Notes under the pieces: model-generated | What the model was told of the DNA's origin: nothing | The model's database searches: none | The model's input: only the letters and a program-made list of their open reading frames with translations | Program-made: the position numbers and the translations under genes | Shown here: positions 10,539 through 29,991 of the stretch, piece by piece | How the letters are laid out: every line of letters begins with the position of its first letter | Position numbering within the stretch: the stretch's first letter is position 1 | Origin: Streptomyces sp. NBC_01750 | Lineage (GTDB): Bacteria; Actinomycetota; Actinomycetes; Streptomycetales; Streptomycetaceae | Direction of reading: 5' to 3' | Length of the DNA: 64,000 nt | Assembly (NCBI RefSeq): GCF_035918095.1 | Contig: NZ_CP109137.1 | Location: 1-64,000 of the forward strand

Positions 10539-10602
10539 GGGATGCGCCGCTCCGGGGCTGGGCTGGTGGGTGCGGTGGCATTGTTGCACCGCACCCTGAG
10601 GG

Positions 10603-13600
10603 CTATTCGGCTGCTTCGGTAATGAGGGCCAGGGTAGAGCCGCTGGCGGCCTTGCGGACGTGGAGGCGGTGGGTGATGCGGCGGCGCAGTTCGGGGACGT
10701 GGCTGATCAGTCCGACGGTGCGGTCGTGGTCGCGCAGGGAGTCCAGGACGTCGAGGACGTGATGGAGGGTGTCTTCGTCGAGGGTGCCGAAGCCTTCGTC
10801 GATGAAGAGGGTGTCCAGGGCGCGTCCCCCTGCCTCGTGGGTGACGACGTCGGCGAGGCCGAGTGCGAGGGAGAGGGAGGCGAAGAAGGACTCGCCGCCG
10901 GAGAGGGTGTCTGTGTCGCGGTCGCGGCCGGTCCAGGCGTCGGTGATCTTGAGGCCGAGGCCGGAGCGTCCGCCGCGGGATGCCCGGTGGTCACTGTGGG
11001 AGAGGGTGTAGCGGTGGTCGGACATACGGGTCAGGCGGGTGTTGGCAGCGGCGACGACTTGTTCGAGTCGTGCGGCCAGAACGTATGCCTCGAGTTCCAT
11101 GCGGTCGTTGTTGCTGAGTGAGGTGCCGTGGATGAGTTCTTGGAGGTGGTGCACGGTGTCGTAGTCGTCCTGGAGGGGTTCCAGGCGCTGGATGCGGGTG
11201 TCGAGTTCCGTGGTGAGGTGGGTGAGGCTGTCACTGCGGGTGCGGGAGCCTGCCGCGGCGGCGACGGCCTGGGTGTGCTGCTCGGCGGCCCTTTCGCGCA
11301 GGCTGACAGCGGCCTGAAGGTCAGCGGGGGGCTGGGCTGCGGCCTGTACGAGCTCGGGCCTTTCCAGGACGGCGGTGTGAGCAGCGCACTGGTGGCTCCA
11401 CTGCTTGATCTCTCCTTCGACGGTGTGCATCGCATCGTCGTCGAGCAGTGCCTGCTCGACAGCCTGGAGGGTGTCGAAGCCCTGGGCTTGAGCAGCGGTG
11501 GTGGCGTGAGTGATGCGTTCGTCCCGTTCCAGGACGGTGCGGGTGGTGGTGGCGGCGGCTTCGCTTGCGGTCTTGAGCTGGTCAGCGCTGTGGGTGAGCT
11601 CGGTGACGCGCGCGGCTACCGTGGGAGCGCCTTCGCGTACGGCGTCGAGCTTGGTGGTGAGGTCCTTCAGCCGTGCAGCGGCGTGGTCGTAGTCAGCGTT
11701 GCGCGCTGAGAGCTGTTCGCCGGCTGTGGTGTCCTTGCGGGTCATCTCGGCCTGTTCGCGTTCCAGGGCTGCGAGTTCTTCGGACGCTGGGCCGAAGTCG
11801 GCCGCTTGCTTGAGGGCCTGTGTCAGTTCCTCCTCAAGGGCGCGGCACTGGGCTTGGATGTCTGCCAGGGGGGCGTCGCCGGCCTCTCCGGCTGCTGATG
11901 CTGCTTGTTCCCGGGCCTGCTGCAGCGTGGTGGTGACGGCCTGCTCGTCCTGCTGGGCCTTGAGGTGTCGGGCTTCGGCAGCCTGTTCATCGGCGCGGGT
12001 CGGCTGGCCCGGGTGCGGGGCAGCCGGTGCGGGGTGCGTGCAGGATCCGCAGACCGGGCAGGGGGCCTCGTCTTCGAGGCTCGCGGCGAGCTCGGCCGCC
12101 ATGCCTTCGGTACGCTGGCGCCGGATGTCGATGTGAGCCGTGGCGGCCTCAGCGGTGACGGTGCGGGCGGTGGCCAGGTGCTGCTCGGCCTCGGTCACGG
12201 CGGCGAGATGGGTGTCGCGCTGTTCGGCTGCTTTCACGCGCCGGCGTACGTCTTCGAGGGTGGTTGCGTGGTGGCGGCTGTCGCCCTCGGCGCTGCGGGC
12301 GGCGTCCATGCGGCCGGTGAGGGCTGTGCGGCGGGCGGGCGCCTGCTCGAGCCATGTGCGGGCCTCGCGCTGCTCGGTGGCGGATTCCACACGCTCGGCG
12401 TCGAGATGTTCGAGGTCGGCAGCGAGCTGCTGAACAGTTGCTTCCTCGGGAAGGAGTTCCTCGGCGACGGCGGCCTGGGCGCGCAGTTGCCGTTCGGCAG
12501 CAGTGAGTTGATCGGCCGTGGCCGCGGCGTGGCCGGAGGTCAGAGGGCTGCGGGCGCCGGCTTCGTCGCGGGCGGCGCGGTCGTGCTCGGCAATCGCTGT
12601 GTTCGCCGCGTGGACGACAGCAGCAAGTTTGCCCGCCCGGCGGCCCTGGGCGAGCTGGTCGTTCAGTTCCTGCTGTCGGGGTGCCTTCTGCTGGAGCAGC
12701 TCGAGCTGCTCTTGGGCACTGCGGTGCTCGCTCTGCTGCTGGTGGAGTGTGCGGACGGTGAGTTCGAGATCCTGCTGGATGCTCAGGTCGGTGGCTGTCT
12801 TCGCTGTTTGCTCGGTCTTTCCCTCCAGGTCCGCTGCTGCAGCCTGTGCCAGGGCGGTGGCCCAGCTGCGGACAGGCCCGGTCAGGGTGTGCGCATCGTC
12901 GCTGGTGGGGTCTGGGTGTTCGTGGTCGAGGTCGCCTGCGGCTTGGTGGATGCGCTCGATCAGGCTGGTCACTTCGCTGCGGGCTGCTGTGAGGGTCTTC
13001 CCCGCCTCCCGGCTGCGCTCGAGGAGCCAGCGGTCGATGTAGGCGAAGCGGCCGGTGCGGAAGAGCTTTCCGAGGAGTTCTCTGCGCTCGGGGGCCTTGG
13101 CGCGCAGGAATTGAGTGAACTGGTTCTGCGGCAGGAGAACGACTTGGCAGAACTGGTCGCGGCTCATGCCCAGCAGCGTGAGGATCGCGTCGCCGGCCTC
13201 TTGGTGGGATTTGCTGGACGCCTCCCACTTGCCTTGTCCCGAGACGTCGTCGTGCTTCCACTCGCGCAGCGTGGTTTGCGCGCTCTGGGTGGTGGTTCCC
13301 GTTCCCCGGGTCTTGGGCCTGGTCTGCTGCGGGGTTCGGGTGATCTCCAGGCGGCGGCCGGAGAGTGTGACCTCGAGCGTCACTTCGGTGAGCAGGTGCT
13401 CCGGGGCGTGGTGACTGCGCAGCAGCAGGTCCAGGTCGCCTGGGGGTTTGCCGTACAGGGCGTAGCAGATGGCGGCGAAGACTGTGCTCTTGCCAGCGCC
13501 GGTGTCGCCGTGGAGGAGGAAGAGGCCGTCGGTGCACAGGGAGTCGAAGTCGATGGTGTGGGTTCCTGCGAAGGGGCCGAAGGCCTGCAGGGTGAGGCTG

Positions 13601-13611
13601 TGCAGGCGCAT
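10603..13611 (-). CDS. sbcC: SbcC/Rad50-like nuclease ATPase subunit
   Basis: The 1002-residue SMC-like ATPase has an N-terminal Walker A (GDTGAGKST), a long coiled coil and a zinc hook near residue 515 (CPVCGSC). The second coiled coil is followed by the C-terminal signature TLSGGESFF and Walker B LFIDEGFGTLD. Together with SbcD it cuts hairpins and blocked DNA ends. Its ATG directly abuts the SbcD stop (TAAATG), so the pair is translationally coupled. No defects are seen. Confidence 0.95.
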   Translation of the reverse strand: MRLHSLTLQAFGPFAGTHTIDFDSLCTDGLFLLHGDTGAGKSTVFAAICYALYGKPPGDLDLLLRSHHAPEHLLTEVTLEVTLSGRRLEITRTPQQTRPKTRGTGTTTQSAQTTLREWKHDDVSGQGKWEASSKSHQEAGDAILTLLGMSRDQFCQVVLLPQNQFTQFLRAKAPERRELLGKLFRTGRFAYIDRWLLERSREAGKTLTAARSEVTSLIERIHQAAGDLDHEHPDPTSDDAHTLTGPVRSWATALAQAAAADLEGKTEQTAKTATDLSIQQDLELTVRTLHQQQSEHRSAQEQLELLQQKAPRQQELNDQLAQGRRAGKLAAVVHAANTAIAEHDRAARDEAGARSPLTSGHAAATADQLTAAERQLRAQAAVAEELLPEEATVQQLAADLEHLDAERVESATEQREARTWLEQAPARRTALTGRMDAARSAEGDSRHHATTLEDVRRRVKAAEQRDTHLAAVTEAEQHLATARTVTAEAATAHIDIRRQRTEGMAAELAASLEDEAPCPVCGSCTHPAPAAPHPGQPTRADEQAAEARHLKAQQDEQAVTTTLQQAREQAASAAGEAGDAPLADIQAQCRALEEELTQALKQAADFGPASEELAALEREQAEMTRKDTTAGEQLSARNADYDHAAARLKDLTTKLDAVREGAPTVAARVTELTHSADQLKTASEAAATTTRTVLERDERITHATTAAQAQGFDTLQAVEQALLDDDAMHTVEGEIKQWSHQCAAHTAVLERPELVQAAAQPPADLQAAVSLRERAAEQHTQAVAAAAGSRTRSDSLTHLTTELDTRIQRLEPLQDDYDTVHHLQELIHGTSLSNNDRMELEAYVLAARLEQVVAAANTRLTRMSDHRYTLSHSDHRASRGGRSGLGLKITDAWTGRDRDTDTLSGGESFFASLSLALGLADVVTHEAGGRALDTLFIDEGFGTLDEDTLHHVLDVLDSLRDHDRTVGLISHVPELRRRITHRLHVRKAASGSTLALITEAAE

Positions 13612-14781
13612 TTAGACAGTCACCTCTTGCGCGGCGTGGATGCGGGATGCCTCGACGGCCTGGCGCAGCAGGTCGTGCTCGGCGGGGGTGGGGTCGGTGC
13701 CACGGACCTTTTTGACGAAGTCGCAGGCAACCTCGAAGTCGGTGCGTCCCTCGAGGCGTTGGGTGTAGGTGGGCCTGTCCCCCGGTTGGGCTGTGTCCGG
13801 GCGTTTGTGCAGGAGCTGCATGGTGTGCGGGAAACGGCGCCGCAGCTTGGCCATGGGCTCGTAGGGAAGGGCGGGGTCCGTGAGGGTGACCTGCAGCCAG
13901 GATTCGGTCAGGTGCTCGTGGGCGGGGTTGGTGAGCAGGTCTTGGAAGGTGCCCTTCAGGCAGGCGAGGGGGCGTGGCACGGGGGTGGGCACGGGGGTGA
14001 GGGTGACGGTGGAGTCGCCGTGCAGGTCGACCACGGTGAGGGTCTTGGTGTGGTCGGACTCGGAGAAGGAGTACGCGAGGGGTGATCCGCTGTAGTGGAT
14101 GCGGTCGCTGATGGTCTGGGCTCCGTGGAGGTGGCCGAGTGCGACGTAGTCGAGTCCGTCGAAGGCGCTCGTGGAGACGTAGTCGAGGCCGCCGACGGTG
14201 ATGTCGCGCTCGCTGGTGCAGGGCTTGGCGTCGGCTACGAAGGCGTGTGCCAAGGCGACTGAGCGCGTCCCGGTCGGGTAGGTGGCGAGGTCGGCTCGGA
14301 TGCGGTCCAGTGCCGCTGTGAGCACTGCCTGGTGGGTCTTGTCGGCCTCGAGTTCGTCGCGGGTCAGCGAGGGCTCCAGGTAGGGAATGCCGTAGATGGC
14401 GACGGTGCCGTGCTCGTCGTCCAGCAGAACGGGAGTGGTGCAGGCGGTGGCCGGGTCGGTGCGCAGGTGGACACCGGCGCGGGCGAGGAGCCGTGAGCCG
14501 ACTCCGAGCCGGTGGGCGGAGTCGTGGTTGCCGCTGATCATGATGATCGGCAGGCGGAGATCGGCCAGCTGGTTCAGGGCGTCGTTGAACAGCCGTACGG
14601 CGTCCAGGCTGGGGATCGCGCGGTCGTAGATGTCTCCTGCTACCAGGATCGCGTCGACCTGCTGCTCGCGTGCGGTGTCGTGCACGTGAGTGAGGAAGGT
14701 GCGCTGGGCGTCGGTCAAGTCTGCTTCGTGGAACCGGCGGCCCAGGTGCCAGTCCGAAGTGTGCAGGAACCTCATGAGCAC
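13612..14781 (-). CDS. sbcD: SbcD/Mre11-like exonuclease subunit
   Basis: The 389-residue metallophosphoesterase shows the family motifs in order: HTSDWHLG, VAGDIYDR, SGNHDS and a later GLDYVALGHLHG. These ligate the two metal ions of the nuclease site. It may start at GTG 14781 or ATG 14775. It is first in an operon with sbcC and the HA-repeat helicase. Confidence 0.95.
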   Translation of the reverse strand: MLMRFLHTSDWHLGRRFHEADLTDAQRTFLTHVHDTAREQQVDAILVAGDIYDRAIPSLDAVRLFNDALNQLADLRLPIIMISGNHDSAHRLGVGSRLLARAGVHLRTDPATACTTPVLLDDEHGTVAIYGIPYLEPSLTRDELEADKTHQAVLTAALDRIRADLATYPTGTRSVALAHAFVADAKPCTSERDITVGGLDYVSTSAFDGLDYVALGHLHGAQTISDRIHYSGSPLAYSFSESDHTKTLTVVDLHGDSTVTLTPVPTPVPRPLACLKGTFQDLLTNPAHEHLTESWLQVTLTDPALPYEPMAKLRRRFPHTMQLLHKRPDTAQPGDRPTYTQRLEGRTDFEVACDFVKKVRGTDPTPAEHDLLRQAVEASRIHAAQEVTV

Positions 14782-16398: not shown

Positions 16399-17151
16399 CT
16401 AGATGGGCGTCGCCCGCAGCCAGGTCCTGTCGCTCGTTAGGAACTCCTCAAGGCGAAGCGAGGAATCGCGCAGACATTCAGCCAGGTCGTCATCGCTGAG
16501 CTTCTGCACCCATATCTGCTGGGTCCATATATGGCCGTCGACGTGGTATTCGAGAACGCCTCCCACCACGTTGTCAGGGCACTGCTCAATGTCCCGCACG
16601 ATAAAACGGTTCTTACCGGCTCTGCGGTCGATCGGGTCTCTCAGGAAGGACGGGTCGTGCCTCTGTATAACGATCGAACCACCCGGGCGTACATGATGGC
16701 GGCAGGTATCCAGCATACTTTTACGCGCCACGACGTTGATGGTATTGATGAGCTGCGAGGCAAGCACGACTCCATCAAACGAGGAAGCCGCCAATCGCAG
16801 GCCCTCGATCGAAGAATGGATCTTCTCGACGGGGGAAAGAACGTTGAGCGCCGGGAACCCGTCGAGCATGTCACGGGACTCGTCGACCGCGACGACCTCG
16901 TGGCCAAGGCTGGCCAGGGCGCGAGTGACGCGTCCGGCTCCGCAGCCGAGCTCCAGGATGCGGGAAGGTACGAGCACTGCGGAGCTGACGATCTCTGCTT
17001 CCCCCTGGGGGGCAAGACGGGTGTACAACGCGACAGGACTTCCGTCCCGCGCGATGGGCCCGTCCCCCCGACCGGATTGACGCCTTCGCTCCTGACCGCC
17101 CGGGTGCGTGCCGAAATTGCCCTGATGAGCCACGGTGTGGGTGCCTTCCAT
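16399..17151 (-). CDS. Class I SAM-dependent methyltransferase
   Basis: The 250-residue protein has a Rossmann methyltransferase core: motif I ILELGCGAGRVTRAL, then VVAVDES at the end of strand 2, and RPGGSIVIQRHDP. The C-terminal part (EYHVDGHIWTQQIWVQ) resembles small-molecule methyltransferases. It begins three bases after the ATP-grasp stop (TGACGGATG) and ends the pentapeptide operon, so the crosslinked peptide or its extension is the likely substrate. The substrate is inference. Confidence 0.85.
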   Translation of the reverse strand: MEGTHTVAHQGNFGTHPGGQERRRQSGRGDGPIARDGSPVALYTRLAPQGEAEIVSSAVLVPSRILELGCGAGRVTRALASLGHEVVAVDESRDMLDGFPALNVLSPVEKIHSSIEGLRLAASSFDGVVLASQLINTINVVARKSMLDTCRHHVRPGGSIVIQRHDPSFLRDPIDRRAGKNRFIVRDIEQCPDNVVGGVLEYHVDGHIWTQQIWVQKLSDDDLAECLRDSSLRLEEFLTSDRTWLRATPI

Positions 17152-17154
17152 CCG

Positions 17155-18549
17155 TCACTGAACGAAGAATAGTGGCGCGAAAACTGGCGGCTTAACCTTT
17201 CTCGTCATTTTTCCGAATGGGGCACTCTTCCTGATCCCAGCGATACCGATCGCATCGCCGGCCACGTAATAGCCGTAATCAACAAAGTTCTCCTCATGGG
17301 TGAGCGTTCCGCTCCGGCTAATCGCTATGCGCGTCGGCTTGGTCCGGACGAGACGCTGGACTAGCCAGGCCTCCGAGGAGGAAATAGCAGACTCGATCAC
17401 CTCTCGCCACTGCGCCGGATCCACTTCGCAGCCGATCGTCACTCCGCGACCTTGAAACCCGGTACCGGGTTTCAGTACTAAATCTTGTTGCTGCGCCTCG
17501 CACCACGCGAGCAGATCAACACTGCTTCCATCAATCAGGGATTTGGTATCGCTTAGAATCCGACTCCAAGGAATAAAGCTGCGCAACAGTGTGGCGGTGG
17601 GCTCGGGCACCCGACCCGCATCAACTTCTTCGGACAGGACGGCGAGTATCGTCTTGTTTCCGGCGATCTGGTCTCCCAGATCATCGAGCAGCGAGACGTT
17701 TCCGTCAGCTGCGGAGTCAATCAAGGGCGCCAGTTTGGGATAAAGTCCCACGGGATCCGGCTGTTCGCCGCACATGCGATAGACGACGGCGACCTTCTGC
17801 CGCTGGAAGGTCACCGCATCTTCTGCCACCTCCAGGTCTTCGACAGCAGCCGCCTCGGCCTTGATCCCGTGTCTACGGAGTTCTCTGGCGAGCATGGTGC
17901 AGTGATAGAAGCCGGGATTGGCCAATTCTTCTTGTCGTTCAATCACGACAACCAGGCCGTCAGGCTCGGTTGCTTGGCCCTTCATCTCTGCCCGGATCAG
18001 GCTGGCGATTGGTCCGATGGCGTCGCCTGGGGTCGCGCCAATTCCACGCAGGAAGTCCCCGATGACCGGAGCCTCCATGAAGATACGCGCCAGCAGGTCC
18101 GCGTCCGGCATGCCGCCGCAAGAAGTGCCCACGTTGGGCTCGACCATGGTGACGACGTCTCCGTGGATCACTACATCAGGGCGACCGACATGCGCCCACC
18201 GGGGACGGCGCGAGGCCCGGATATACCGATTGGAAGGGCCGTCCAGGCGAAGCTCGTCGGCGAGTCGCTCCCAGGATGCATCCATGCGGTTTTCGTAGAC
18301 GTGATTCAAACCGCTCCGGAAGGCCTGGTGTAGACCCTTCAGTCGCTTTGTCAGCGCAGTGGGCACCAGCGGTGGGGGGACCGGGAGACGCTCGCCGATG
18401 GAATACATGCAAGCATCTCGAACCTCTCTAAGTGCTTCCCCATCCGCGTCGAAATACGATCCCAGTAGTTCAGCGTGCGGAGCCACGTATTCATGAAAAG
18501 CCATGTTAAGTTTAGCTATCTCATACTCAAGAATGACAAGCTCCTTCAT
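17155..18549 (-). CDS. ATP-grasp-like ligase of the pentapeptide RiPP operon
   Basis: The 464-residue protein resembles circularly permuted or glutathionylspermidine-synthase-like ATP-grasp enzymes. VEPNVGTSCGGMPDADLLA resembles the substrate/nucleotide loop of that group, and DLVLKPGTGFQGRGVTIG resembles the ATP-grasp lysine and glycine-rich loop. ATP-grasp enzymes join a carboxylate to an amine, so it could lengthen or cap the short peptide. The ATG at 18549 starts the conserved MKELVILEYEIAKLN part but lacks a good ribosome site; the frame is open upstream to 18618. It is 82 bases downstream of the MRYVH gene and separated from it by a hairpin. Confidence 0.7.
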   Translation of the reverse strand: MKELVILEYEIAKLNMAFHEYVAPHAELLGSYFDADGEALREVRDACMYSIGERLPVPPPLVPTALTKRLKGLHQAFRSGLNHVYENRMDASWERLADELRLDGPSNRYIRASRRPRWAHVGRPDVVIHGDVVTMVEPNVGTSCGGMPDADLLARIFMEAPVIGDFLRGIGATPGDAIGPIASLIRAEMKGQATEPDGLVVVIERQEELANPGFYHCTMLARELRRHGIKAEAAAVEDLEVAEDAVTFQRQKVAVVYRMCGEQPDPVGLYPKLAPLIDSAADGNVSLLDDLGDQIAGNKTILAVLSEEVDAGRVPEPTATLLRSFIPWSRILSDTKSLIDGSSVDLLAWCEAQQQDLVLKPGTGFQGRGVTIGCEVDPAQWREVIESAISSSEAWLVQRLVRTKPTRIAISRSGTLTHEENFVDYGYYVAGDAIGIAGIRKSAPFGKMTRKVKPPVFAPLFFVQ

Positions 18550-18583
18550 GAATAGCGGTATGGGGTGGAGAGGCTGGTGTGCC

Positions 18584-18619
18584 GGTGCGGTCCAGCCTCT
18601 AAGAAGGCCGGACCGCACC
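18584..18619 (-). terminator. Strong hairpin after the pentapeptide gene (attenuator)
   Basis: GGTGCGGTCC and GGACCGCACC form a perfect 10-pair stem (18584-18593 with 18610-18619). Inside is a second 4-pair stem (GCCT/AGGC). It lies 12 bases after the MRYVH stop and before the ATP-grasp gene, with no long T-run. Such hairpins after RiPP precursor genes often stop or stabilise transcripts so that precursor exceeds enzyme. That role here is inferred. Confidence 0.6.
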
Positions 18620-18630
18620 CCTGGGAATTA

Positions 18631-18648
18631 TCAGTGCACGTAACGCAT
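18631..18648 (-). CDS. Minimal RiPP precursor pentapeptide MRYVH (biarylitide type)
   Basis: A five-codon gene reads ATG CGT TAC GTG CAC TGA, giving M-R-Y-V-H. It sits behind the perfect Shine-Dalgarno AAGGAGGTG (18653-18661 on the complement), in an otherwise unexplained 180-base gap of an operon with a cytochrome P450. Biarylitide precursors are pentapeptides of pattern M-x-Y-x-H whose Tyr and His (or Trp) are crosslinked by a P450, releasing an N-terminally trimmed cyclic tripeptide. The Tyr3/His5 spacing matches. Unlike classical two-gene bytA-bytO loci, the P450 is two genes upstream and four more tailoring genes share the operon. It is far below normal gene-calling limits. Confidence 0.85.
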   Translation of the reverse strand: MRYVH

Positions 18649-18652
18649 GGCC

Positions 18653-18661
18653 CACCTCCTT
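18653..18661 (-). promoter_or_regulatory. Perfect Shine-Dalgarno of the MRYVH gene
   Basis: AAGGAGGTG on the minus strand is fully complementary to the 16S rRNA 3' end. It ends four bases before the ATG (spacer GGCC). It is stronger than those of the neighbouring enzyme genes, as expected for a precursor made in excess. Confidence 0.8.
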
Positions 18662-18731
18662 GTTGTTGCGGTCATTTCAGACACGAGCCGTCATTATCGG
18701 CAGTGCTCGCATCAGTCATTGGACGGCGGGA

Positions 18732-19742
18732 TTACGACAGCCGATCTCCATGAAGAGATAGCGTGTGACACTCATCGCCGTTCCGTATGCGGAATGTGAT
18801 TTCGGCCCCGCCCGTCCCGTTTGGACGAATCAGGATGGTCCGCTCCATGGTCCACCCGCCGAGCCGGAATTCGCCTTCGCCTAGATGTATTAGATCGGCG
18901 CGGGGGATCCCCTCGATGAACAGCACAGGGGTCCCATCCGGGCAGTCCACTGCAGCTGGCACCAGCCCTTGCCGCCGGAAAATGCCGGCATCCGTCTCCA
19001 GGAAGGACGTGAACAATGCGGGCATGTCGAACTCGCATCTGAACGACCGGACGTCAACCGGGCCCAGCGGCACCTCCGGACGGACGTAGAGCGTGTTGTC
19101 GAGCACGCTTGGCGTCCTGAACTCCTCCGGAAAGAGTGCCATCAGCTCCTTGGTGACATCCGCGTCGACGACGAGGTGAACCCGCGTCACAGCCTCATCG
19201 GTGTTCGCCACGGCGTGCGGGCGAGAGAAGTCCCCGTACCAGAGGTCTCCTGCGTTCCAGCAATGTGCCTCGCCGTCAACGGTCAGCGTCGCTTGCGGGG
19301 TGGTCGAGATGGGTACGTGCAGGCGGACGGTGCCCCACGGGAGACCACACTTTTCGTCACTGTGGGTAGGACCATGCGTGTCGGGCCGAGTGGCCATCAG
19401 CCTCGCTCCGCGGAGAGGAGCGGGGAAGTCTCCCAGGAGCCGGGCGAGATAAGGCATATTCTCAAGCAATGTCGATCCCGCGTAATCTCTCAGATACGGG
19501 AAGTCGCCAGCGCTGGGGCGAGGGGCGGCGGCCATGTGTCGCAACCTGAGGCTCTGCCAGCCGATGGAGTCACTCTCACGTGTTGTTCCGTCTGGCGCAT
19601 GCACTTCGATTGCCGCCCAGGGAGCTTCTGCCAAGTCCTCAAGCTCAGCGCGGAGCGATGCGGCATCGTAGGTGCGGGCAAGGCGTGCGCTACCAGGGAG
19701 CTTGGCGAGAATCGGAGAGGGCGGCCAGGGCCTTGTGTCCAC
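18732..19742 (-). CDS. Aspartyl/asparaginyl beta-hydroxylase-like oxygenase (second copy)
   Basis: The 336-residue cupin-type Fe(II)/2-oxoglutarate oxygenase shows an HxD pair in THSDEKCGLPWGTVRLH, a downstream His in SRPHAVANTDEAVTRVH and the Arg in that same segment. A C-terminal domain of about 120 residues (FIEGIPRADLIHLGEGEFRL) follows. It begins NWP-like PWPPSPILAKLP, just as its neighbour does, so the two are paralogues of nearly equal length. It starts at GTG 19742 after GGGAGAAC. It lies directly upstream of the MRYVH gene, so a hydroxylation on that peptide is likely. Confidence 0.8.
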   Translation of the reverse strand: MDTRPWPPSPILAKLPGSARLARTYDAASLRAELEDLAEAPWAAIEVHAPDGTTRESDSIGWQSLRLRHMAAAPRPSAGDFPYLRDYAGSTLLENMPYLARLLGDFPAPLRGARLMATRPDTHGPTHSDEKCGLPWGTVRLHVPISTTPQATLTVDGEAHCWNAGDLWYGDFSRPHAVANTDEAVTRVHLVVDADVTKELMALFPEEFRTPSVLDNTLYVRPEVPLGPVDVRSFRCEFDMPALFTSFLETDAGIFRRQGLVPAAVDCPDGTPVLFIEGIPRADLIHLGEGEFRLGGWTMERTILIRPNGTGGAEITFRIRNGDECHTLSLHGDRLS

Positions 19743-19780
19743 GATGTTCTCCCATTGAATCGAGGCGATCTGCGACTTCC

Positions 19781-20794
19781 CTACAGCGGACGAGAGGAAG
19801 GAATCTCCAGAGACCGCACCACATTGCCGCAGCGGCTGCGGAGGATCACCTTGTCACCGCCGTTCTTTTCACTGGGGATCAGCTGGATCGTCCGCTCGCG
19901 ACTCCAGCCGGCGAGACGGAACTCCCGGTCTCCCACATGAACGAGCTTGAAGGCGGCTTGGCCGTCAATGTGGAGGCCCAGAGAGTCCTCGAAGAGGTCG
20001 ATCGTCGCGATCTCACATTCCTGAGCCACGGTGAACACCCCGTCCTCCTCTTCAAACGACTTGAAGGACCGAGGAAGCCGAAATGTGCAGCGCAGCGCAG
20101 CGAGTTCCTCTATCGACAAAGTCGGCTGTTCCGAGGCAAAAAGGATGTTCCTTCGCACATCGGCGGTGTGGAACTCTCTTGGAAACAGTTCCAGCAGCTC
20201 TTCCGTCGGCTGGCAGTCGATCACCATGTGCACGCGCGGCTCGCGGTCGGTGTTCCGCACGACGTGCATCCGAGTGAAGTCGGCGTACCACAGTTGGCCC
20301 GGCTGCCAGCGCTGTGTCGTGTCATCGATCTCCAGCACCGCACCCGGCGTTGTCAGAACCGGCACGTGAAGGCGCAGGGCGCCCCACGGCAAGCCATACT
20401 TCGTATCGTGATGGAGCGGACTCTCGGCTCCTGGGCCCAACAACATGAGGCGTACGGCGCGCAACGGTGCTGGGATGCCGGCCAAGACCTCCTTGAAGTA
20501 GGGCGTGTCGGCTAGCCACCGGGTGTCGGCGAATTCCGCCAGCCCGGGCCCGCCGGCGTCGCTCCTGGTGGCCTCACCACGCAGGCTGCGCAGCGCTATG
20601 GAACGCCAGTCCAAATCGGTGACGTACTTGCCGACCCCCTCGCCCGAGACGATGCGAGGCTGGTTCCACGTCAGTCCGTTGAGCTGCGCGAGGTCCTTAC
20701 GCAGGCGGTCGGCGTCGTACTCCTGCCGGAGTCGGGCGACGGCAGGGAGTTTCGTGAGAATCGGCGCCTGGGGCCAGTTGTCGATCTGGCTCAT
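19781..20794 (-). CDS. Aspartyl/asparaginyl beta-hydroxylase-like oxygenase (first copy)
   Basis: The 337-residue paralogue of the next gene has the HxD pair in LHHDTKYGLPWGALRLH, the distal His in RMHVVRNTDREPRVH and the same C-terminal domain (HIDGQAAFKLVHVGDREFRL). The ATG at 20794 follows AAGGGGGACC. It lies 39 bases after the P450 stop and 38 bases before its paralogue. Two such enzymes in one pentapeptide operon imply two oxidations, or one active and one diverged copy; both keep their metal ligands. Confidence 0.82.
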   Translation of the reverse strand: MSQIDNWPQAPILTKLPAVARLRQEYDADRLRKDLAQLNGLTWNQPRIVSGEGVGKYVTDLDWRSIALRSLRGEATRSDAGGPGLAEFADTRWLADTPYFKEVLAGIPAPLRAVRLMLLGPGAESPLHHDTKYGLPWGALRLHVPVLTTPGAVLEIDDTTQRWQPGQLWYADFTRMHVVRNTDREPRVHMVIDCQPTEELLELFPREFHTADVRRNILFASEQPTLSIEELAALRCTFRLPRSFKSFEEEDGVFTVAQECEIATIDLFEDSLGLHIDGQAAFKLVHVGDREFRLAGWSRERTIQLIPSEKNGGDKVILRSRCGNVVRSLEIPSSRPL

Positions 20795-20833
20795 GTGATG
20801 GTCCCCCTTGCAAGTGCGATGACGGTCGCTCAG

Positions 20834-22033
20834 CTACCGGTTAACGATGGAAAGTTGCAGTCGGTCGAGACCACGCAGAGTTGCGGTGGGACGCTGGACC
20901 GGTACTTCCCTGAGTTGAATGCTGTAGCGGCGTACGAAGTCGCCGAGTATTTCGACGCCCAGCAGCAAGGCAAGCCTGGTTCCCAAGCAGGAATGAATAC
21001 CCTTACCGAAGCCGAGATGGGGGTTCTGCGAGCGGTCAAATGCCAACTTATCGGGGTCGGAGAATATCGTTCCGTCCCGATTGGCAGACCCAACCATTAC
21101 CACGACCACTTCACCGGCCCGCAGGCGCTTTCCGCCGACCTGTGATTCCCGGCTCACAGCCCTGCTCTCAGCTTGAACAGCTCCATCGAATCTCACCAGC
21201 TCATGGAAGGCCGTTTGATCGATCTCAGGCACCGTACCAGCATCGAAAATTCCTTGCTCTGCCAGAGCGCGAATAGCGTTCCCGAATGCGCTACTCGTGG
21301 AAGAGTATCCAGCTACAAAAATTGCCCGCAGAGAGTTCACGAGAAAGTTGAGCTGCTCACCGGAAACCGCAGAGTAATCCACGTCGCTCAGGAGGCCGGC
21401 CGGAGGTGCGTGCTCGATCCACGGCTCGACCAGGCCACTGAGGTGACGTCTGGCCTGCATCCCAGCCTCACGGCGGGAAGGTTCCAGCCCCGAGTCCATG
21501 CTGAGCACGAGATCGCGCTGCGCCGAACGAAAGGCCGTCTCGTCTTCCAGCAGCGGAATCCCGAACAGGACACACATACTATGGGCCGCCAGAGGCTCCG
21601 CGAACTCCGTTATGAAGTCGAAGTCACTGACGTCTACGACACTCAACAACTTCTCGGCGTGCGCCTTCGTCTCGCGAAGCCAGCCTTTCAGGTCGACTTT
21701 GCGAAGCGCAGGAAGGATGGCCTTGCGAACGGCGGCATGATCGGGAAGGTCAAGAGTCTGCAGACTGAGAAATTCGTCGGGAGTCTCCTCCCCTGTCACC
21801 CGGAAGTCTGACACGAATGTCTCATGGTCCTGCAGGATCTGCGAGCAGTCAGCATACCGGGTGACCATCCAGGCATTGAGCTTCTCGTGCCAATGGATGG
21901 GATCCTCACGTCGCAGCATCTCATACGCCGGGTAGGGATTCTCAAGTACCTCGGTGGACAATGGATCTAAGGTTTGCATGCCGAATCCAGGTTCACTAGG
22001 CATCGTGGCGGAATGGTCATCCGGCCCAGACAT
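20834..22033 (-). CDS. Cytochrome P450, candidate biaryl-crosslinking enzyme
   Basis: The 399-residue soluble P450 has a normal heme loop (FGKGIHSCLG, near 345), a K-helix ExxR (HELVRFDG) and an I-helix AIFVAGYSSTSSAF in which the usual AGxxT has Ser at the Thr place and Thr one residue later. In biarylitide loci the P450 joins Tyr and His side chains of the M-x-Y-x-H peptide; a matching peptide gene lies in the same operon, so that is the likely role. Starts at 22033 and at two downstream ATGs are all possible; none has a clear ribosome site. Confidence 0.9.
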   Translation of the reverse strand: MSGPDDHSATMPSEPGFGMQTLDPLSTEVLENPYPAYEMLRREDPIHWHEKLNAWMVTRYADCSQILQDHETFVSDFRVTGEETPDEFLSLQTLDLPDHAAVRKAILPALRKVDLKGWLRETKAHAEKLLSVVDVSDFDFITEFAEPLAAHSMCVLFGIPLLEDETAFRSAQRDLVLSMDSGLEPSRREAGMQARRHLSGLVEPWIEHAPPAGLLSDVDYSAVSGEQLNFLVNSLRAIFVAGYSSTSSAFGNAIRALAEQGIFDAGTVPEIDQTAFHELVRFDGAVQAESRAVSRESQVGGKRLRAGEVVVVMVGSANRDGTIFSDPDKLAFDRSQNPHLGFGKGIHSCLGTRLALLLGVEILGDFVRRYSIQLREVPVQRPTATLRGLDRLQLSIVNR

Positions 22034-22385: not shown

Positions 22386-23633
22386 TTACTTGTCTGGCGT
22401 CTGTGCGGCGCCGTTCATTAGAGGGGCGGTCGACCGGCTCCATCCCGGCCAGAGCGCAGCGGCTGTGGCGACGGTGGCCACGCCGGCTGCACCGACGGCA
22501 GCGCCATAACCCGTCCACTCCGCAAGCGCTCCGAGGACCATCGGGCCAACCCCCTGCAAGGCCATCAGACCCGTGCCCAACAGCGCGAAAGCCTGTCCCA
22601 GCAGTGCGGTCGGCGCGACGTCGCGGAACCGTCCTTGCACGCCCAGCATGTAAGCGTTGCCCACGCCGGACACTGCCAGGAGCGCAGCGCAGACCAGCGT
22701 CGGCGGCTCGAACAGCAAGGGCACAAAGGCGATTCCGACGAGAGTCATGAGCGGCATGACCAGTCGGACGCGGGTCGCAGGCCGGACCAGACGGCCCATC
22801 AGGAGGTCTCCAACGATCATGCCCACCGGCAGGCAGGCCAGGAGCAGACTCGCCGCGGTGACGGAGAAACCGCGGACGCGGGCGTACGGAAGGATCAGGC
22901 TCTCCACCCCCGCGATGAACGCCGGCGGTAGCCACTGCGCCAAGAACAAAGAGCGCATGGCGCGCTCCTTCATCAATTGTCTTGTACCGGACCAGCTTTG
23001 CCGGACGACCGTGCCGGCCGCCCTGCCCTCGACGGGAAGATTCGGCAGACCGATGCGGACAACGATCGCCGCAGCTAGATGGCAGAGCGCCCCGGTCAGC
23101 AGCGCGCCCGGTACGCCGAGCCACGCGACGAGCAGCCCTCCGGCCGCGAGTGCGACCAGTTGGCCGCCGGACATGGTCAGGCCGACCAGCGAGCGGCCCA
23201 GGACGTACGCGTCACCGTGGAGCGACTGGGCGATGACCTTGCTCGTGGCCCCCCGGAACGCGGGGGTGAGCGCGCCGAGCACCGCCACGAGAAGCAAGCC
23301 GGCGCCGATCGGCAGGGGGGCCAGCGCCACCACTGCGCCGACCGCGCATTCGAGCCCGTGACCGGCCGCGATCAGGGCTCGTGGGCATATCCGGTCGGGC
23401 AACGCTCCCAGCAGAACACCGCCGATCGCCTGCGGTGCGAAGGCGATTCCGTAGGTGAGTGCGGTGAGAAAAGCGGAACCCGTCACGTCGTACACCAGCA
23501 GCGACAGCGCAACCATGCGAAGCGTCGTGCCGAGGACCGCAGCCAGGTTGGCACCGAAGAGAAGGCGGAATACGGGATTGTCGAAGACTTCCCGGTACGT
23601 CGCTGATGCCGTTGCGGTGTCGCTCGATGCCAT
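22386..23633 (-). CDS. MFS transporter
   Basis: The 415-residue protein has about twelve hydrophobic segments and an MFS_3/enterobactin-exporter-like layout, with conserved loops such as GALPDRICPRALI after helix 2 and APQAIGGVLLGAL. It starts at ATG 23633. It is divergent from the ArsR-type regulator and upstream of the P450 operon, so it may export the finished peptide. MFS plus DUF5937/ArsR pairs also occur alone, so membership in the cluster is not certain. Confidence 0.85.
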   Translation of the reverse strand: MASSDTATASATYREVFDNPVFRLLFGANLAAVLGTTLRMVALSLLVYDVTGSAFLTALTYGIAFAPQAIGGVLLGALPDRICPRALIAAGHGLECAVGAVVALAPLPIGAGLLLVAVLGALTPAFRGATSKVIAQSLHGDAYVLGRSLVGLTMSGGQLVALAAGGLLVAWLGVPGALLTGALCHLAAAIVVRIGLPNLPVEGRAAGTVVRQSWSGTRQLMKERAMRSLFLAQWLPPAFIAGVESLILPYARVRGFSVTAASLLLACLPVGMIVGDLLMGRLVRPATRVRLVMPLMTLVGIAFVPLLFEPPTLVCAALLAVSGVGNAYMLGVQGRFRDVAPTALLGQAFALLGTGLMALQGVGPMVLGALAEWTGYGAAVGAAGVATVATAAALWPGWSRSTAPLMNGAAQTPDK

Positions 23634-23707
23634 GGCGAGAAGCGTGCCGCCGAGCCGATTGCATGGCTAATGTTTCGCACGGACGCGAAAAGCAGAGGGG
23701 GAGACAG

Positions 23708-24754
23708 GTGTTCCGACTGGAAGTGTGCGCCGAAGACCTGCTTCGAACCCGGTTCGCGCTGTCACCGCTGACGGAGTTGACGCGTCTGCTCCGACTCTTG
23801 AGCGGAGGCTCGCGTTCAGCTCTGTCGGCGAGATGGGTCAACCGGCTGGAGCCGGCATACCGCTGCCTGCTGCGCGAAACGGACCTGCATGCCGTACTTG
23901 CCCTGGAGTCAGCCCACAGCGGTGTCGGTTTCATCAACCAGCCTCCGGCCGGCATGGCCCAGACCTGGCCCGACGACCTCGCCGCGATCCAGGCCACGCC
24001 CCCGCGCCAGGCACGACAGGAAATCGACCAGTGGCTGGCTGGGCATCCCGTACGTGATCAGCGCTCGCTGCGCGTCCTGCGCGGCACCGACCCTGTGGAC
24101 CGCATCGCCCACGCTCTCGACCAGGCCTGGCACGCGCTGCTCGCCCCGCTCTGGCACCAGCTCCGGGCCATTTGTGACTACGACGTCGTGCACCGCGCCG
24201 GGCGACTGTCGCAATTCGGATGGGCGGCCGCGCTGGACGGCCTGCACGATGGAGTGCGTTGGCACGACGGCGCCATTGAACTGAAGGGCGACCCGACCCG
24301 GGATCCAGTGTCGCTCGACGGGGACGGCTTGCTCCTGGTGCCGTCCGTGTTCGTCTGGCCCGGCCTCGTCGTGCACGTCGACCAACCGTGGCCGAAGGCA
24401 TTGATATACCCAGCCCGCGGTGTGGCCGCCATATGGGAAACGTCGTTCGATGCCGACCCTGAAGCCCTGCACGCGCTGATCGGCGCAGCGCGAGCACGGC
24501 TGTTGACGGCTCTTGAGCAACCGGCCACCACAACCCAACTCGTCGCGATGCTGGGGATGACGCTCGGCGCGGCGGGCAGACACCTAGCCGTACTTCGCGA
24601 GGCCGGGATGGTCAACCGCGCCCGCATGGGGCGATCGGTGCTCTACCGCCGCACACCGCTGGGCGACGCGCTGGCCGCCGTCGCGGTCAGCAAGACGCCC
24701 ACTGCACGCACCGCCAGAGCCTCACGGGATACCAGCGCCGCATCACACGCGTGA
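23708..24754 (+). CDS. ArsR-type winged-helix regulator (DUF5937-like)
   Basis: The 348-residue protein has a long N-terminal domain (VFRLEVCAEDLLRTRFALSP onward) of the kind called DUF5937. A C-terminal ArsR winged helix follows (RARLLTALEQPATTTQLVAML, then GRHLAVLREAGMV). The GTG at 23708 was chosen for the GGGGGAG ribosome site; the frame is open upstream to 23606. It is divergent from the MFS gene with 74 bases between them, the usual arrangement of a regulator with its exporter. Confidence 0.85.
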   Translation: MFRLEVCAEDLLRTRFALSPLTELTRLLRLLSGGSRSALSARWVNRLEPAYRCLLRETDLHAVLALESAHSGVGFINQPPAGMAQTWPDDLAAIQATPPRQARQEIDQWLAGHPVRDQRSLRVLRGTDPVDRIAHALDQAWHALLAPLWHQLRAICDYDVVHRAGRLSQFGWAAALDGLHDGVRWHDGAIELKGDPTRDPVSLDGDGLLLVPSVFVWPGLVVHVDQPWPKALIYPARGVAAIWETSFDADPEALHALIGAARARLLTALEQPATTTQLVAMLGMTLGAAGRHLAVLREAGMVNRARMGRSVLYRRTPLGDALAAVAVSKTPTARTARASRDTSAASHA

Positions 24755-25532: not shown

Positions 25533-26480
25533 TCATTTCTCGTCGTGGCAACTGCCTACACTCTGCGACATGACCCTCGCTGCGAAGTCGTGCCATGTCT
25601 TGGCGCACTCCACGGCCAGAGCGGCCACGGACTCTGCTCGGTGTGGCGGCACGTTGTCCGTAAGCCGTTCCCATTCATCAGCCTGGATCAGATTCATATC
25701 CAGCAGCCGCAGCAGGAAGCGACCCGTCTCCGTCATCCGCACGGACGGGTCCTGGCGCAGAATCTGGTACGCCATCCTCCACCGTTCGGCGCTGGAGCGC
25801 TGGTGGCTCGCACGGTCCGGAGGCGCCTCACGCGACGATTCGCGTGGACAGTACATGGCATGGGAGACCCGACCTGACCTGGCCATCGCACCGGACGGAA
25901 CGTCCTTAGTTCCGCCGCGGTCGGACGTGGGAACGGTCTCGTCCTTCGCTTTCCGTGTGGGGAGCTGGCGGATTCTGCCGTCCCTCCCGACTCGAGCCGT
26001 CGACTGAGGAAATTCCTCAGCAGCTAGGCGCCGCCGTACGACCCCGACTGTCTTGGGCGAGAGACCGACCAGCCCGGCGATCATGCGGTCTGACCAATCT
26101 GCGTGCGTCCGCACGATGCGGGCGGCTGCGGTTCTGCGGTCTGCCAAGGTCAGTGGCAGACCGTGCGTGGCGTTGGCTTGTACTGCTGCGACGAACGCTT
26201 CCTCCTCGTCCCCCTCGAAGAACCGAACGGCGATCGTCTCTCGCCCCTGCAACTTGGCTGCCAACAGCCGGTGCCTACCGTCGATTACGCGGAGCGTGTG
26301 ACGGTGCACGAGGATAGGCGGTAACGGGCCCTCAATCTCCACCAGAACACGGACATGGCCCTCGTTCGTGCCCTTTATCCGAAGCGTGTCACCCGCGACG
26401 AGCGAGGTGAGGGGAACAGTTTCCCCATCGACTTGCTCATGCGAAGCGATCTGTAACCAATGGACGTCAGAGTAAAGCAT
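25533..26480 (-). CDS. StrR/ParB-like transcriptional regulator (copy 1)
   Basis: This 315-residue protein has a ParB-nuclease-like N-terminal domain with PPILVHRHTLRVIDGRHRL and GRETIAVRFFEGDEEEAF. A helix-turn-helix follows (WSDRMIAGLVGLSPKTVGVVR), then a C-terminal helical region (RMTETGRFLLRLLDMNLI). This is the layout of StrR-type activators of antibiotic gene clusters. The ATG at 26480 follows AAGGGGGAAG. It shares the whole layout with the regulator at 27441-28487, so the two are paralogues. Confidence 0.8.
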   Translation of the reverse strand: MLYSDVHWLQIASHEQVDGETVPLTSLVAGDTLRIKGTNEGHVRVLVEIEGPLPPILVHRHTLRVIDGRHRLLAAKLQGRETIAVRFFEGDEEEAFVAAVQANATHGLPLTLADRRTAAARIVRTHADWSDRMIAGLVGLSPKTVGVVRRRLAAEEFPQSTARVGRDGRIRQLPTRKAKDETVPTSDRGGTKDVPSGAMARSGRVSHAMYCPRESSREAPPDRASHQRSSAERWRMAYQILRQDPSVRMTETGRFLLRLLDMNLIQADEWERLTDNVPPHRAESVAALAVECAKTWHDFAARVMSQSVGSCHDEK

Positions 26481-26847: not shown

Positions 26848-27386
26848 TCAGACCCCGCCAAACCTCAGGTCGGCCCGTAGCACGGGCTCGAAGAACGAGA
26901 ACTTGTTGTTGTCGGCTGCGACTTCGGAGGAGACGATCCCGGCCTTGAGCAGCGCCTTCAGGAAATGATCGCTCGGCAAATGGGCCATGGGCGACGACGT
27001 GCCCCATGCACTGGGGGCCACCTGCCTGAGAACGGCGAGCCCGCATAATGCGAGTCCCTCCTGCTCCAGTCTCCGCGCCACCTCGTAGGCGACGAATGCT
27101 CCGGAACAGTCCCCCAGCAGAATGAACAACTCGCCATGCCCTCGCGCGTGGCGCGGATATTCTCCGTGCACTCGGCGACCACAGACGACATGTCGCGCCG
27201 CAGCGGCTCCGAGAACCTGCTCTCCCGGCCTGGCAGTCGCACAGTGAGCAGACTGAGACTCGGCGGCGAGCCACGTGCCAGGTCACGGTGGGAAGCTGCC
27301 CCTGAACCCGAGCTGGGGATGGTGTAAACGACAGCCTGAACCGGTCCCTCCGACGCGGTGTGCTCCAGCACCCAGCGTTCACTCAC
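26848..27386 (-). pseudogene. Type II thioesterase-like hydrolase, frameshifted and truncated
   Basis: The GTG at 27386 has a perfect AAGGAGGTG site. The first frame (VLEHTASEGPVQAVVYTIP, then LLTVRLPGRESRFSEPL) matches the N-terminus of alpha/beta-hydrolase thioesterases that edit polyketide and peptide synthetases. Near 27138-27148 the reading moves to a second frame with LFILLGDCSGAFVAYEVARR; the nucleophile motif is GDCSG, with Cys where Ser is usual. That frame ends at PVLRADLRFGGV, about 60-80 residues short of a full enzyme. It is probably inactive unless the indels are errors. Confidence 0.6.
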
Positions 27387-27440: not shown

Positions 27441-28487
27441 TCACTCTGGTGGATGTGGTCGAGCCAGCCGGCTGGCCCAAGACATGCTCGCCGTCGCCTG
27501 CTCGTCGCACGCCTCCAACTGTTTTGCGAGTTGGTACCAGTCCCGCGAACAGGAATAGGCCAGCTCCGCGACAGCGCACCGCCAACGGCTGGGAAGCCAG
27601 TTGATGAGCCGCTGCCGCTGCCCGGTGTCGGCGATGTGCATGCCGAACAGGCGCAGCAAGAGCCGGCCCTCGGCAGACATACGAAGCTGCGGATCCCGCA
27701 TGAGCGCTTGCCTGGCCGTCTCCCGGTTCAGCATCCCGACGGCAGCTCCGGCACCGCTGTCCATCGCGATGTGGCTTCCCTGCGCGGCATTCAGCTCGGC
27801 CCTGCGCTGACGGGGAGGGACCGGGTCCTCGTTGCGCTGCAGGCGCTGACGCACATCCCGCACGGTGCCCGGTGACACGCCGGCCGCGGTGGCGATCTCC
27901 CGCAGTGAGGCATCAGGGTTCTTCGCGATCAGAGCGCTCGCCAACCTGCGGCCCTCCGTACTGTTGACCGGGCGGGCCTTGCTGTCCCTCCCGATCCGGG
28001 AGTGCAACTGGGGAACTTCCCCGGTTGCCGACCGCCGACGAATGGCAGCGACGGTCTTCGCCGCCAACCCGGTCGCTGCGGCCACCGCACGATCAGACCA
28101 TTCCGGATGTGTCTTGACGATGCGTAGTGCCGCCGCTGTGCGATCCGATAGCGTCAGCGGCAAACCATGCTGCATGTTGGACTTCACAGCAAGAACAAAT
28201 GCGTCCCGTACGCTTCCATCAAAGAACTTGACCTCAATTACATCCCGGCCCCGCAAAGTCGCGGCGTGCAGCCGATGCATTCCGTCGATGACTCTCATCG
28301 ACGGGCGGTGGACAATAATTGGAGGCAATACTTCTTCGGACTGGGCAAGCATGCGACCATGCTCCATATCCTCACCCGCCAAACGGGGAGAATCTGCCGT
28401 TACCAGTGAAGCGATAGAGACGCGCTCGACACTCGACTCTGCTAAATCACTCTTAGGCGAAGGCTCCAGGGGTATGCCTTCCATCAT
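27441..28487 (-). CDS. StrR/ParB-like transcriptional regulator (copy 2)
   Basis: The 348-residue protein has the same layout as copy 1: PPIIVHRPSMRVIDGMHRL, GRDVIEVKFFDGSVRDAF, the helix-turn-helix WSDRAVAAATGLAAKTVAAIR and a C-terminal LRMSAEGRLLLRLFGMHI. It carries an extra helix-turn-helix-like segment (ASLREIATAAGVSPGTVRDVR) that copy 1 lacks. The ATG at 28487 was chosen for GAAGGATGCG upstream; the frame is open to 28541. StrR-type proteins activate antibiotic genes by binding inverted repeats; suitable repeats lie in its upstream region. Confidence 0.82.
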   Translation of the reverse strand: MMEGIPLEPSPKSDLAESSVERVSIASLVTADSPRLAGEDMEHGRMLAQSEEVLPPIIVHRPSMRVIDGMHRLHAATLRGRDVIEVKFFDGSVRDAFVLAVKSNMQHGLPLTLSDRTAAALRIVKTHPEWSDRAVAAATGLAAKTVAAIRRRSATGEVPQLHSRIGRDSKARPVNSTEGRRLASALIAKNPDASLREIATAAGVSPGTVRDVRQRLQRNEDPVPPRQRRAELNAAQGSHIAMDSGAGAAVGMLNRETARQALMRDPQLRMSAEGRLLLRLFGMHIADTGQRQRLINWLPSRWRCAVAELAYSCSRDWYQLAKQLEACDEQATASMSWASRLARPHPPE

Positions 28488-28606
28488 CACGCATCCTTCC
28501 TGCCGGGCCATCGACACGAACACGTACATGGAGTGGCCCACGAAGCACTTGACTCAGATCAGCAACAACCGAAGAACAACTGCTCAACCCACGCCACAAA
28601 CCGGCG

Positions 28607-29448: not shown

Positions 29449-29991
29449 GTGCCGCCGGAAATGAGATACAGCCAGCGCCGCAGCCTTGCACACCTACGCC
29501 GCAGTTGTGAGGCCCGTCTGGCTGCGTTGATGCTCCCCATGTCGTGCGACATCGCCGGGTTGTGCGCTCGTCTAAGCGAGCGGCGCGGCCGACCTCTCCA
29601 TCTGATTCCCATTGCCATGCGGGCCGCCCAGCCGTGCGGTCTTTGGATCGCCTCGGACGCGGCCGACCTCGTCATATTCGAAGCCAAGACTACGCGACCT
29701 CACCAGGACCACATCATCGTGCACGAGCTGGCTCACATAGTCTGCGAACATCGCAGCAGCTCATCCCTGGACGACGCGACCGCCCGATTGGTGTTTCCGG
29801 ATCTGAATCCAGAGCTAGTCCGAAATATGCTGCAGCGTTCAAACTATTCTGATGCCCAGGAACAAGAAGCGGAGATGATGGCAAGTCTGATCCTCGCCAC
29901 ACAGAATGACGGCATCGCTGTGCCCCCAACTCCCGCGCTGGGGGCACTCAGCGAGGCACTGGGAATCACCCAAAGGGGACGTCGACTGTGA
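29449..29991 (+). CDS. ImmA/IrrE-family metallo-endopeptidase
   Basis: About 180 residues carry the zinc protease motif HELAH within IIVHELAHIVCEH, and a downstream Glu region (AQEQEAEMMASLIL) that supplies the third ligand. Family members cut XRE-type repressors, and the gene lies after one. The start may be GTG 29449 (after GAGAGG) or ATG 29461. It overlaps the next gene (GTGA). Confidence 0.88.
   Translation: MPPEMRYSQRRSLAHLRRSCEARLAALMLPMSCDIAGLCARLSERRGRPLHLIPIAMRAAQPCGLWIASDAADLVIFEAKTTRPHQDHIIVHELAHIVCEHRSSSSLDDATARLVFPDLNPELVRNMLQRSNYSDAQEQEAEMMASLILATQNDGIAVPPTPALGALSEALGITQRGRRL

Follow-up and report, generated by a model that had tools for sequence, protein, structure and literature searches.

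Biarylitides, for which we know of no function, are formed from five-residue precursors that are crosslinked by a cytochrome P450, and the first-pass annotation of the DNA analyzed here described their loci as minimal two-gene systems. That description is out of date, as a paper of July 2026 counts 277 biarylitide clusters, some with tailoring enzymes (PMC13417212). Among these, the sav cluster of Saccharothrix variisporea encodes MRYVH with SavB, SavT and SavH; only the C-C-crosslinked tripeptide YVH was obtained from it, and its authors suspected YVH to be an intermediate (PMC13417212). The Planomonospora biarylitide (bytA-bytO) derives from MRYYH, while the myxarylin cluster (bytA-bytO-bytZ) combines a C-N crosslink with a methyltransferase, no ligase or hydroxylase being reported in the accessible text of PMC8708641 and PMC12951456. 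Pgm1-type clusters place an ATP-grasp ligase beside a precursor with Asp at position 4 (PMC13417212). Here we describe a biarylitide-type locus with a ligase of another kind in Streptomyces sp. NBC_01750, found within positions 1 to 64,000 of contig NZ_CP109137.1 (the whole stretch analyzed, hereafter the window).

Like the sav cluster, the window locus encodes the identical MRYVH peptide, a BytO-type P450 and an Asp/Asn hydroxylase; unlike the window, which has two hydroxylases, the sav cluster is listed in the main text with an amidinotransferase, a single hydroxylase and neither ligase nor methyltransferase (PMC13417212). The same main text names ATP-grasp once, for Pgm1, never names a methyltransferase, and mentions no relative of the window ligase for S. 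variisporea (PMC13417212). As a species, S. variisporea does possess relatives of the ligase (P0013, 48% identical) and of hydroxylase OX1 (P0187, 49%). Precursor and crosslinking are thus known chemistry and the ligase association is new; the 'new product class' first proposed for this locus goes too far, YVH being known from an identical precursor (PMC13417212). A full-text literature search, outside which subscription papers and supplements lie, returned no other title or abstract start pairing such a ligase with a biarylitide.

The neighbors initially described (P450, two oxygenases, ATP-grasp enzyme, methyltransferase and exporter) are all present. The core of the locus reads:

16399..17151, minus strand: class I methyltransferase, with the N-terminus of the peptide as predicted target (family and structure matches)
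17155..18549, minus strand: circularly permuted ATP-grasp ligase, glutathione-synthetase fold in the model, predicted peptide ligase (families, fold)
18584..18619, minus strand: strong hairpin just 3' of the precursor stop, putative attenuator or 3' protector (folding)
18631..18648, minus strand: bytA-like precursor gene, MRYVH (one MRYxH gene in each of four related loci)
18653..18661, minus strand: ribosome-binding site AAGGAGGTG (read from the sequence)
18732..19742, minus strand: OX2, second oxygenase of the same family as OX1 (PF05118; 39% identical to OX1)
19781..20794, minus strand: OX1, Asp/Asn-hydroxylase-family oxygenase (PF05118; kept in all five loci)
20834..22033, minus strand: BytO-family P450, predicted Tyr-His crosslinker (gene end 2,185 bases before the precursor gene)

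A five-codon precursor gene that recurs beside the ligase

The 18-base gene first noticed behind a ribosome-binding site is real: minus-strand codons 18648-18631 read ATG CGT TAC GTG CAC TGA. In the 64 kb it is the only frame of the form ATG/GTG/TTG-x-[YWHF]-x-[YWHF]-stop with a ribosome-binding site, the other aromatic five-residue frame, MMWSW at 29717, having none. ATGNNNTAYNNNCAYTRA occurs once in the window and in 0 of 100 shuffles, and the same counts hold for ATGNNNTAYNNNCAYTRA together with a ribosome-binding site. Gene callers do overlook a gene of this size, as the first-pass annotation said, although this had already been published. With five residues, aromatic residues at positions 3 and 5 and its ribosome-binding site, MRYVH is a biarylitide-type precursor, and the locus a real biarylitide-type locus. 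The precursor lies farther from the P450 gene than the 500 bases of the older definition; that limit has since been dropped for a 3-kb search, within which the window locus falls, and one clade has the two genes about 1,400 bases apart (PMC13417212).

Related loci were sought in public genome contigs with the ligase alignment alone, without the P450 or the peptide, and 4 of 160 candidate stretches were confirmed (L086 and L087, the same records as L005 and L004, were counted once):

L003, Nonomuraea solani: MRYRH
L004, Nocardiopsis chromatogenes: MRYIH, with a weak ribosome-binding site
L005, [Actinomadura] parvosata: MRYRH
L006, Kitasatospora sp. GAS204B: MRYVH

A single ATG-x-[YWH]-x-[YWH]-stop frame is present in each, so the MRYxH gene expected at homologous loci was found in all four. 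All four also encode the ligase (46-48% identical to that of the window), the P450 (44-49%) and a hydroxylase that is nearer OX1 (46-53%) than OX2 (39-41%). Two hydroxylase genes separate precursor and P450 in the window, the ligase gene does so in L003-L005 (1,506-1,595 bases), and the L006 P450 is divergent from and close to its precursor. Such separation has been called unique to the MRYWY clade (PMC13417212). Another separated pair was seen at L079:7692, where an MRYLH gene lies ~1.35 kb upstream of a BytO-like P450. Radical SAM proteins, one of them with a B12-binding domain, adjoin the L004 (8425-10296) and L005 (8338-9753) clusters as a further tailoring enzyme, and a second P450 lies beside the BytO-type one at L006:6207-7406.

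A survey based on the P450 gave a second view of the precursor. BytO-like matches at E 1e-75 or better occur in 15 of 394 genomes of the class, the window's own included; they comprise a strong set of nine loci from 8 other genomes (E 1.1e-116 or better) and a weak set of six loci (~1e-76). A pentapeptide gene lies within ~1.5 kb of the P450 in 8 of the 9 strong loci versus 0 of the 6 weak ones, an outcome unchanged in 18-19 kb stretches for all nine strong loci and for the four weak loci examined. The strong-locus peptides are MRYYH, MRYLH, MSYRH, MKYWH, MFYDH, MRYFY, MRYIY and MRYAY. Across the same 18-19 kb stretches, the ligase is found in none of the nine strong loci and a hydroxylase homologue in one (L082); unlike the window, the sampled MRYYH locus (L077) has neither in 19 kb. 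A chance frame, which the mere 18 bases of the gene might suggest, is ruled out by the shuffles and by the single matching gene in each of the four other loci, and the strong and weak P450 sets speak against it as well; its probability is close to nil.

Immediately behind the precursor, the hairpin forms a 16-pair stem (14 pairs Watson-Crick; z -4.54) that none of 200 shuffles equals. Stems with at least 11 Watson-Crick pairs within 90 bases of the stop occur in 4 of the 5 loci, where 0.028-0.063 would be expected per site. The scan found no T-run terminator at the hairpin, which is therefore not a classical terminator by that scan, and no sigma-70-like promoter (0 found versus 1.5 expected). 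Attenuation or 3' protection would be its role.

The P450 and the type of crosslink

The closest solved structures to the window P450 are 9jv0/9jvf and the variant 9jvj (414 and 411 bits), followed by the 8spc group (275 bits), which we take to be RufO, and 8u2m (255 bits), the first outside P450 scoring 131 bits. Structure 8u2m is P450Blt (PMC12951456). Two observations led us to treat 9jv0 as BytO. Its sequence nearly equals P0068, a Planomonospora P450 that is ~50% identical to the window's, and the S. variisporea P450 P0091 is 68.3% identical to P0068, which agrees with the printed 68.8% for SavB and BytO (PMC13417212). In a tree of 74 rows, a clade of 50 (99/95) unites the window P450 with P0068, P0091 and those of L003-L006. 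The first reading had made its case depend on the P450 clustering with biarylitide enzymes, and it does group with Planomonospora BytO and SavB. A further record of the same P450, P0041, switches frame at the heme-ligand region, and its C-terminal part follows the other frame.

One position differs with the type of crosslink: C-N enzymes carry His there, C-C enzymes Val or Leu (PMC12951456, section 9). It corresponds to Val240 in the window P450 and is Val in all five ligase loci, as in the Planomonospora enzyme, and His in 9jvj; rows L062 and L075, which are out of frame, were left out of the comparison. A C-C bridge between Tyr and His is thus the better guess, as predicted from this residue.

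RufO-type nitration was considered and is not the best reading, since the P450 is nearer BytO (414 bits) than the 8spc group, presumably RufO (275 bits). The same scores argue against a RufO-like scenario in which the peptide, once crosslinked or hydroxylated, serves as a scaffold and is degraded to an unusual amino acid for another pathway. The precedent is that the RufO branch gives nitrotyrosine for rufomycin (PMC13417212), and a frame-broken thioesterase remnant at ~26848-27386 would fit; no assembly-line enzyme beyond this remnant was seen in the Pfam-scanned parts of the window, which do not include every frame, and we regard this outcome as highly improbable.

Ligase, hydroxylases and methyltransferase

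The ATP-grasp-like enzyme of the first-pass annotation is present, but its start, judged by homologues, is ATG 18549 and not GTG 18618. The five loci differ from the Pgm1 type at precursor position 4, which is V, R or I instead of Asp (PMC13417212). The window ligase matches circularly permuted ATP-grasp families, another difference from that type, above the profile cut-off, and its structural model has the glutathione-synthetase fold, shared over most of its length at 11-16% identity with glutathione and glutathionylspermidine synthetases, YgiC/YjfC and Cp1B. From this model we predict that it acts as a peptide ligase. A solved-structure search with the ligase profile returned two flavoprotein sequences that matched a short stretch at E 5e-4, which we regard as spurious. 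Of nine ligases scanned with Pfam, seven are below the cut-off or unseen, so most relatives escape domain annotation, a point that the first-pass annotation did not notice.

Alternatively, the ligase could cap the N-terminal amine of the crosslinked tripeptide with a small acid or amino acid in the manner of Pgm1, which in pheganomycin biosynthesis reportedly joins a non-standard amino acid to ribosomal peptides. Pgm1-type ligases do occur in 47 biarylitide clusters (PMC13417212), the structural neighbor Cp1B couples a small acid with an amino acid (PMC12568646), and the sav amidinotransferase could make a guanidino acid. However, the nearest structural neighbors include glutathione, glutathionylspermidine and peptide-polyamine ligases, which act on a peptide carboxylate, and the methyltransferase, for which the free N-terminus is the predicted substrate, would compete with a cap. 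We consider N-terminal capping unlikely.

The ligase is rare. At E 1e-70 or better, one genome each was found among 392 of the genus, 394 of the class and 391 of the order, always the window's own, and one related family gave 2 of 297 genomes, both duplicates of L004 and L005; four or five candidates per genome were scored in these surveys, so misses are possible. A second related family, guessed to be Frankia-like, gave 0 of 35 genomes, which shows nothing by itself. Weaker relatives are common (78 of 392 genus genomes at 1e-20, the best at 7.5e-62). Spread by plasmids was rejected, as 72,556 plasmid records gave no match at E 1e-30. Streptomyces sp. NBC_01794 seems to hold the same cluster, as P0167 is 98% identical to OX2 and the ligase P0001, apparently also from this strain, 99% identical to that of the window. 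In Streptomyces eurythermus, two P450 records (P0071, P0086) and a ligase are all listed with one 41,016-base contig.

Both oxygenases belong to the Asp/Asn-hydroxylase family, with PF05118 scores of 51.4 and 48.6 bits versus a cut-off of 22.6. OX1 residues His128, Asp130, His177 and Arg187 are invariant in 26 aligned members including OX2, and we take them to be the HxD...H iron ligands and the co-substrate Arg. A quick tree, without the out-of-frame L082 row (branch 5.69), puts OX1, OX2, the hydroxylases of L003-L006 and P0187, which we infer to be SavH, in a single group of 46 rows (99%) that includes several long branches. Within it OX2 groups with P0224. For P0224, P0176 and the ligase P0002 alike, the longest contig listed has 5951 bases, which hints at, but does not prove, a sister cluster carrying two hydroxylases. 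Since residue 4 of the precursor varies (V/R/I) while OX1 is kept, the target of OX1 would be an invariant residue. A solved-structure sequence search with OX1 gave no match; Foldseek of its model ranked proline hydroxylases and human AspH among the top matches, a result that does not single out the hydroxylated residue.

The methyltransferase (16399-17151; METHYLTRANSFERASE) matches CypM at E 3.5e-8 and, more poorly, CorZ (9sot) at E 2.6e-4; it is of the same broad class as the myxarylin enzyme. CorZ is the myxarylin N-methyltransferase (PMC12951456). The best NCBIfam match, daptide methyltransferase, lies far below its cut-off (61.6 versus 175). From these matches, the enzyme would methylate an N-terminus.

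Genomic setting and proposed pathway

Four further genes may belong to the cluster:

22386..23633, minus strand: major facilitator superfamily (MFS) exporter (homologue at three of the four related loci)
23606..24754, plus strand: DUF5937/ArsR-type regulator (homologue at three of the four)
25533..26480, minus strand: ParB-like regulator 1, possible cluster part, which we take to be ParB/StrR-like (homologue at two of the four; no Pfam match)
27441..28541, minus strand: ParB-like regulator 2, possible cluster part, likewise presumed ParB-like (homologue at two of the four; Pfam helix-turn-helix only)

Because homologues of these genes occur at some related loci, the cluster is possibly larger and may extend to 28541. 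The thioesterase remnant (26848-27386) lies between the two ParB-like genes; it consists of type II-like pieces in differing frames and looks broken. Positions 1-32684 match, in inverted orientation, the right end of the 8,885,979-base contig with one mismatch, located within the first 4,078 bases, and identity stops at 32685. The cluster is therefore inside a 32.7-kb terminal inverted repeat of a linear chromosome, and every gene there, cluster included, is present twice. G+C is 0.60-0.62 across 16-22 kb versus 0.69-0.71 across 2-14 kb, in keeping with acquisition from elsewhere. Near the chromosome end (8265-14781), a helicase with four helicase-associated domains is followed by genes we presume to be SbcC- and SbcD-like.

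The sequence work establishes the precursor gene and its conservation, the families of the enzymes, the conserved catalytic residues in the hydroxylases and the fold of the modeled ligase. We infer all steps after crosslinking, and the C-C bond itself, and judge the following route somewhat better than an even bet: the P450 closes a C-C Tyr-His bridge in MRYVH, and hydroxylases, ligase and methyltransferase then hydroxylate, extend and methylate the peptide. MRYVH would be translated from a message ended or protected by the hairpin, and the P450 would form the C-C bridge that SavB forms in an identical precursor. OX1 would oxidize an invariant position (Tyr, His or the leader Arg), and OX2 may add a second oxidation in the window's branch. 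The ligase would activate the C-terminal His carboxylate and couple an amine or amino acid; a host protease would cut off Met-Arg, the methyltransferase would cap the new N-terminus, as in myxarylin, and the MFS protein would export the product.

Several observations weigh against parts of this route. The sav strain and heterologous expression gave YVH alone with SavH present, so hydroxylation of the crosslinked peptide is unproven (PMC13417212). The same result favors plain crosslinked YVH as the sole product, with the amidinotransferase and hydroxylase of the sav cluster as a precedent (PMC13417212) and the other enzymes here idle or of a different pathway; ligase, hydroxylase and P450 nevertheless stay with the precursor in all five loci over several genera, and we find this very unlikely. 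The fold of the ligase model fixes neither substrate nor joining direction. No close methyltransferase homologue is found in the four related loci (best in L006, 28% over 98 residues, E 1.2e-4), and the similarity to CorZ is weak. Outside the ligase loci the diagnostic P450 position varies widely: L063, L065 and L066 have His, L067 has Leu, and L061 and L064 have Gln. Nor do the five loci amount to five independent cases, as L003 and L005 share ~87% identical DNA over 4.4 kb; in L005 a bulged stem stands at the place of the hairpin and a simple hairpin scan finds none. No pentapeptide was found in 18-19 kb of L078, one of the nine strong BytO-like loci.

The five loci form a rare branch whose shared features are MRYxH, a P450 of the BytO type, an Asp/Asn hydroxylase and a ligase that is under-annotated; to these the window adds a second hydroxylase and the methyltransferase. 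More tentatively, and on the doubtful side of even, we propose a separate biarylitide branch in which a glutathione-synthetase-type ligase lengthens a P450-stapled five-codon peptide by adding an amine or amino acid that is not encoded; the product would be a 'stapled glutathione', with YVH as its unfinished intermediate. A conserved and mostly missed ligase is a possible reason why the tested MRYVH cluster stopped at YVH, its gene having perhaps been left out of the construct. If this is true, adding the overlooked ligase gene would complete the published YVH.

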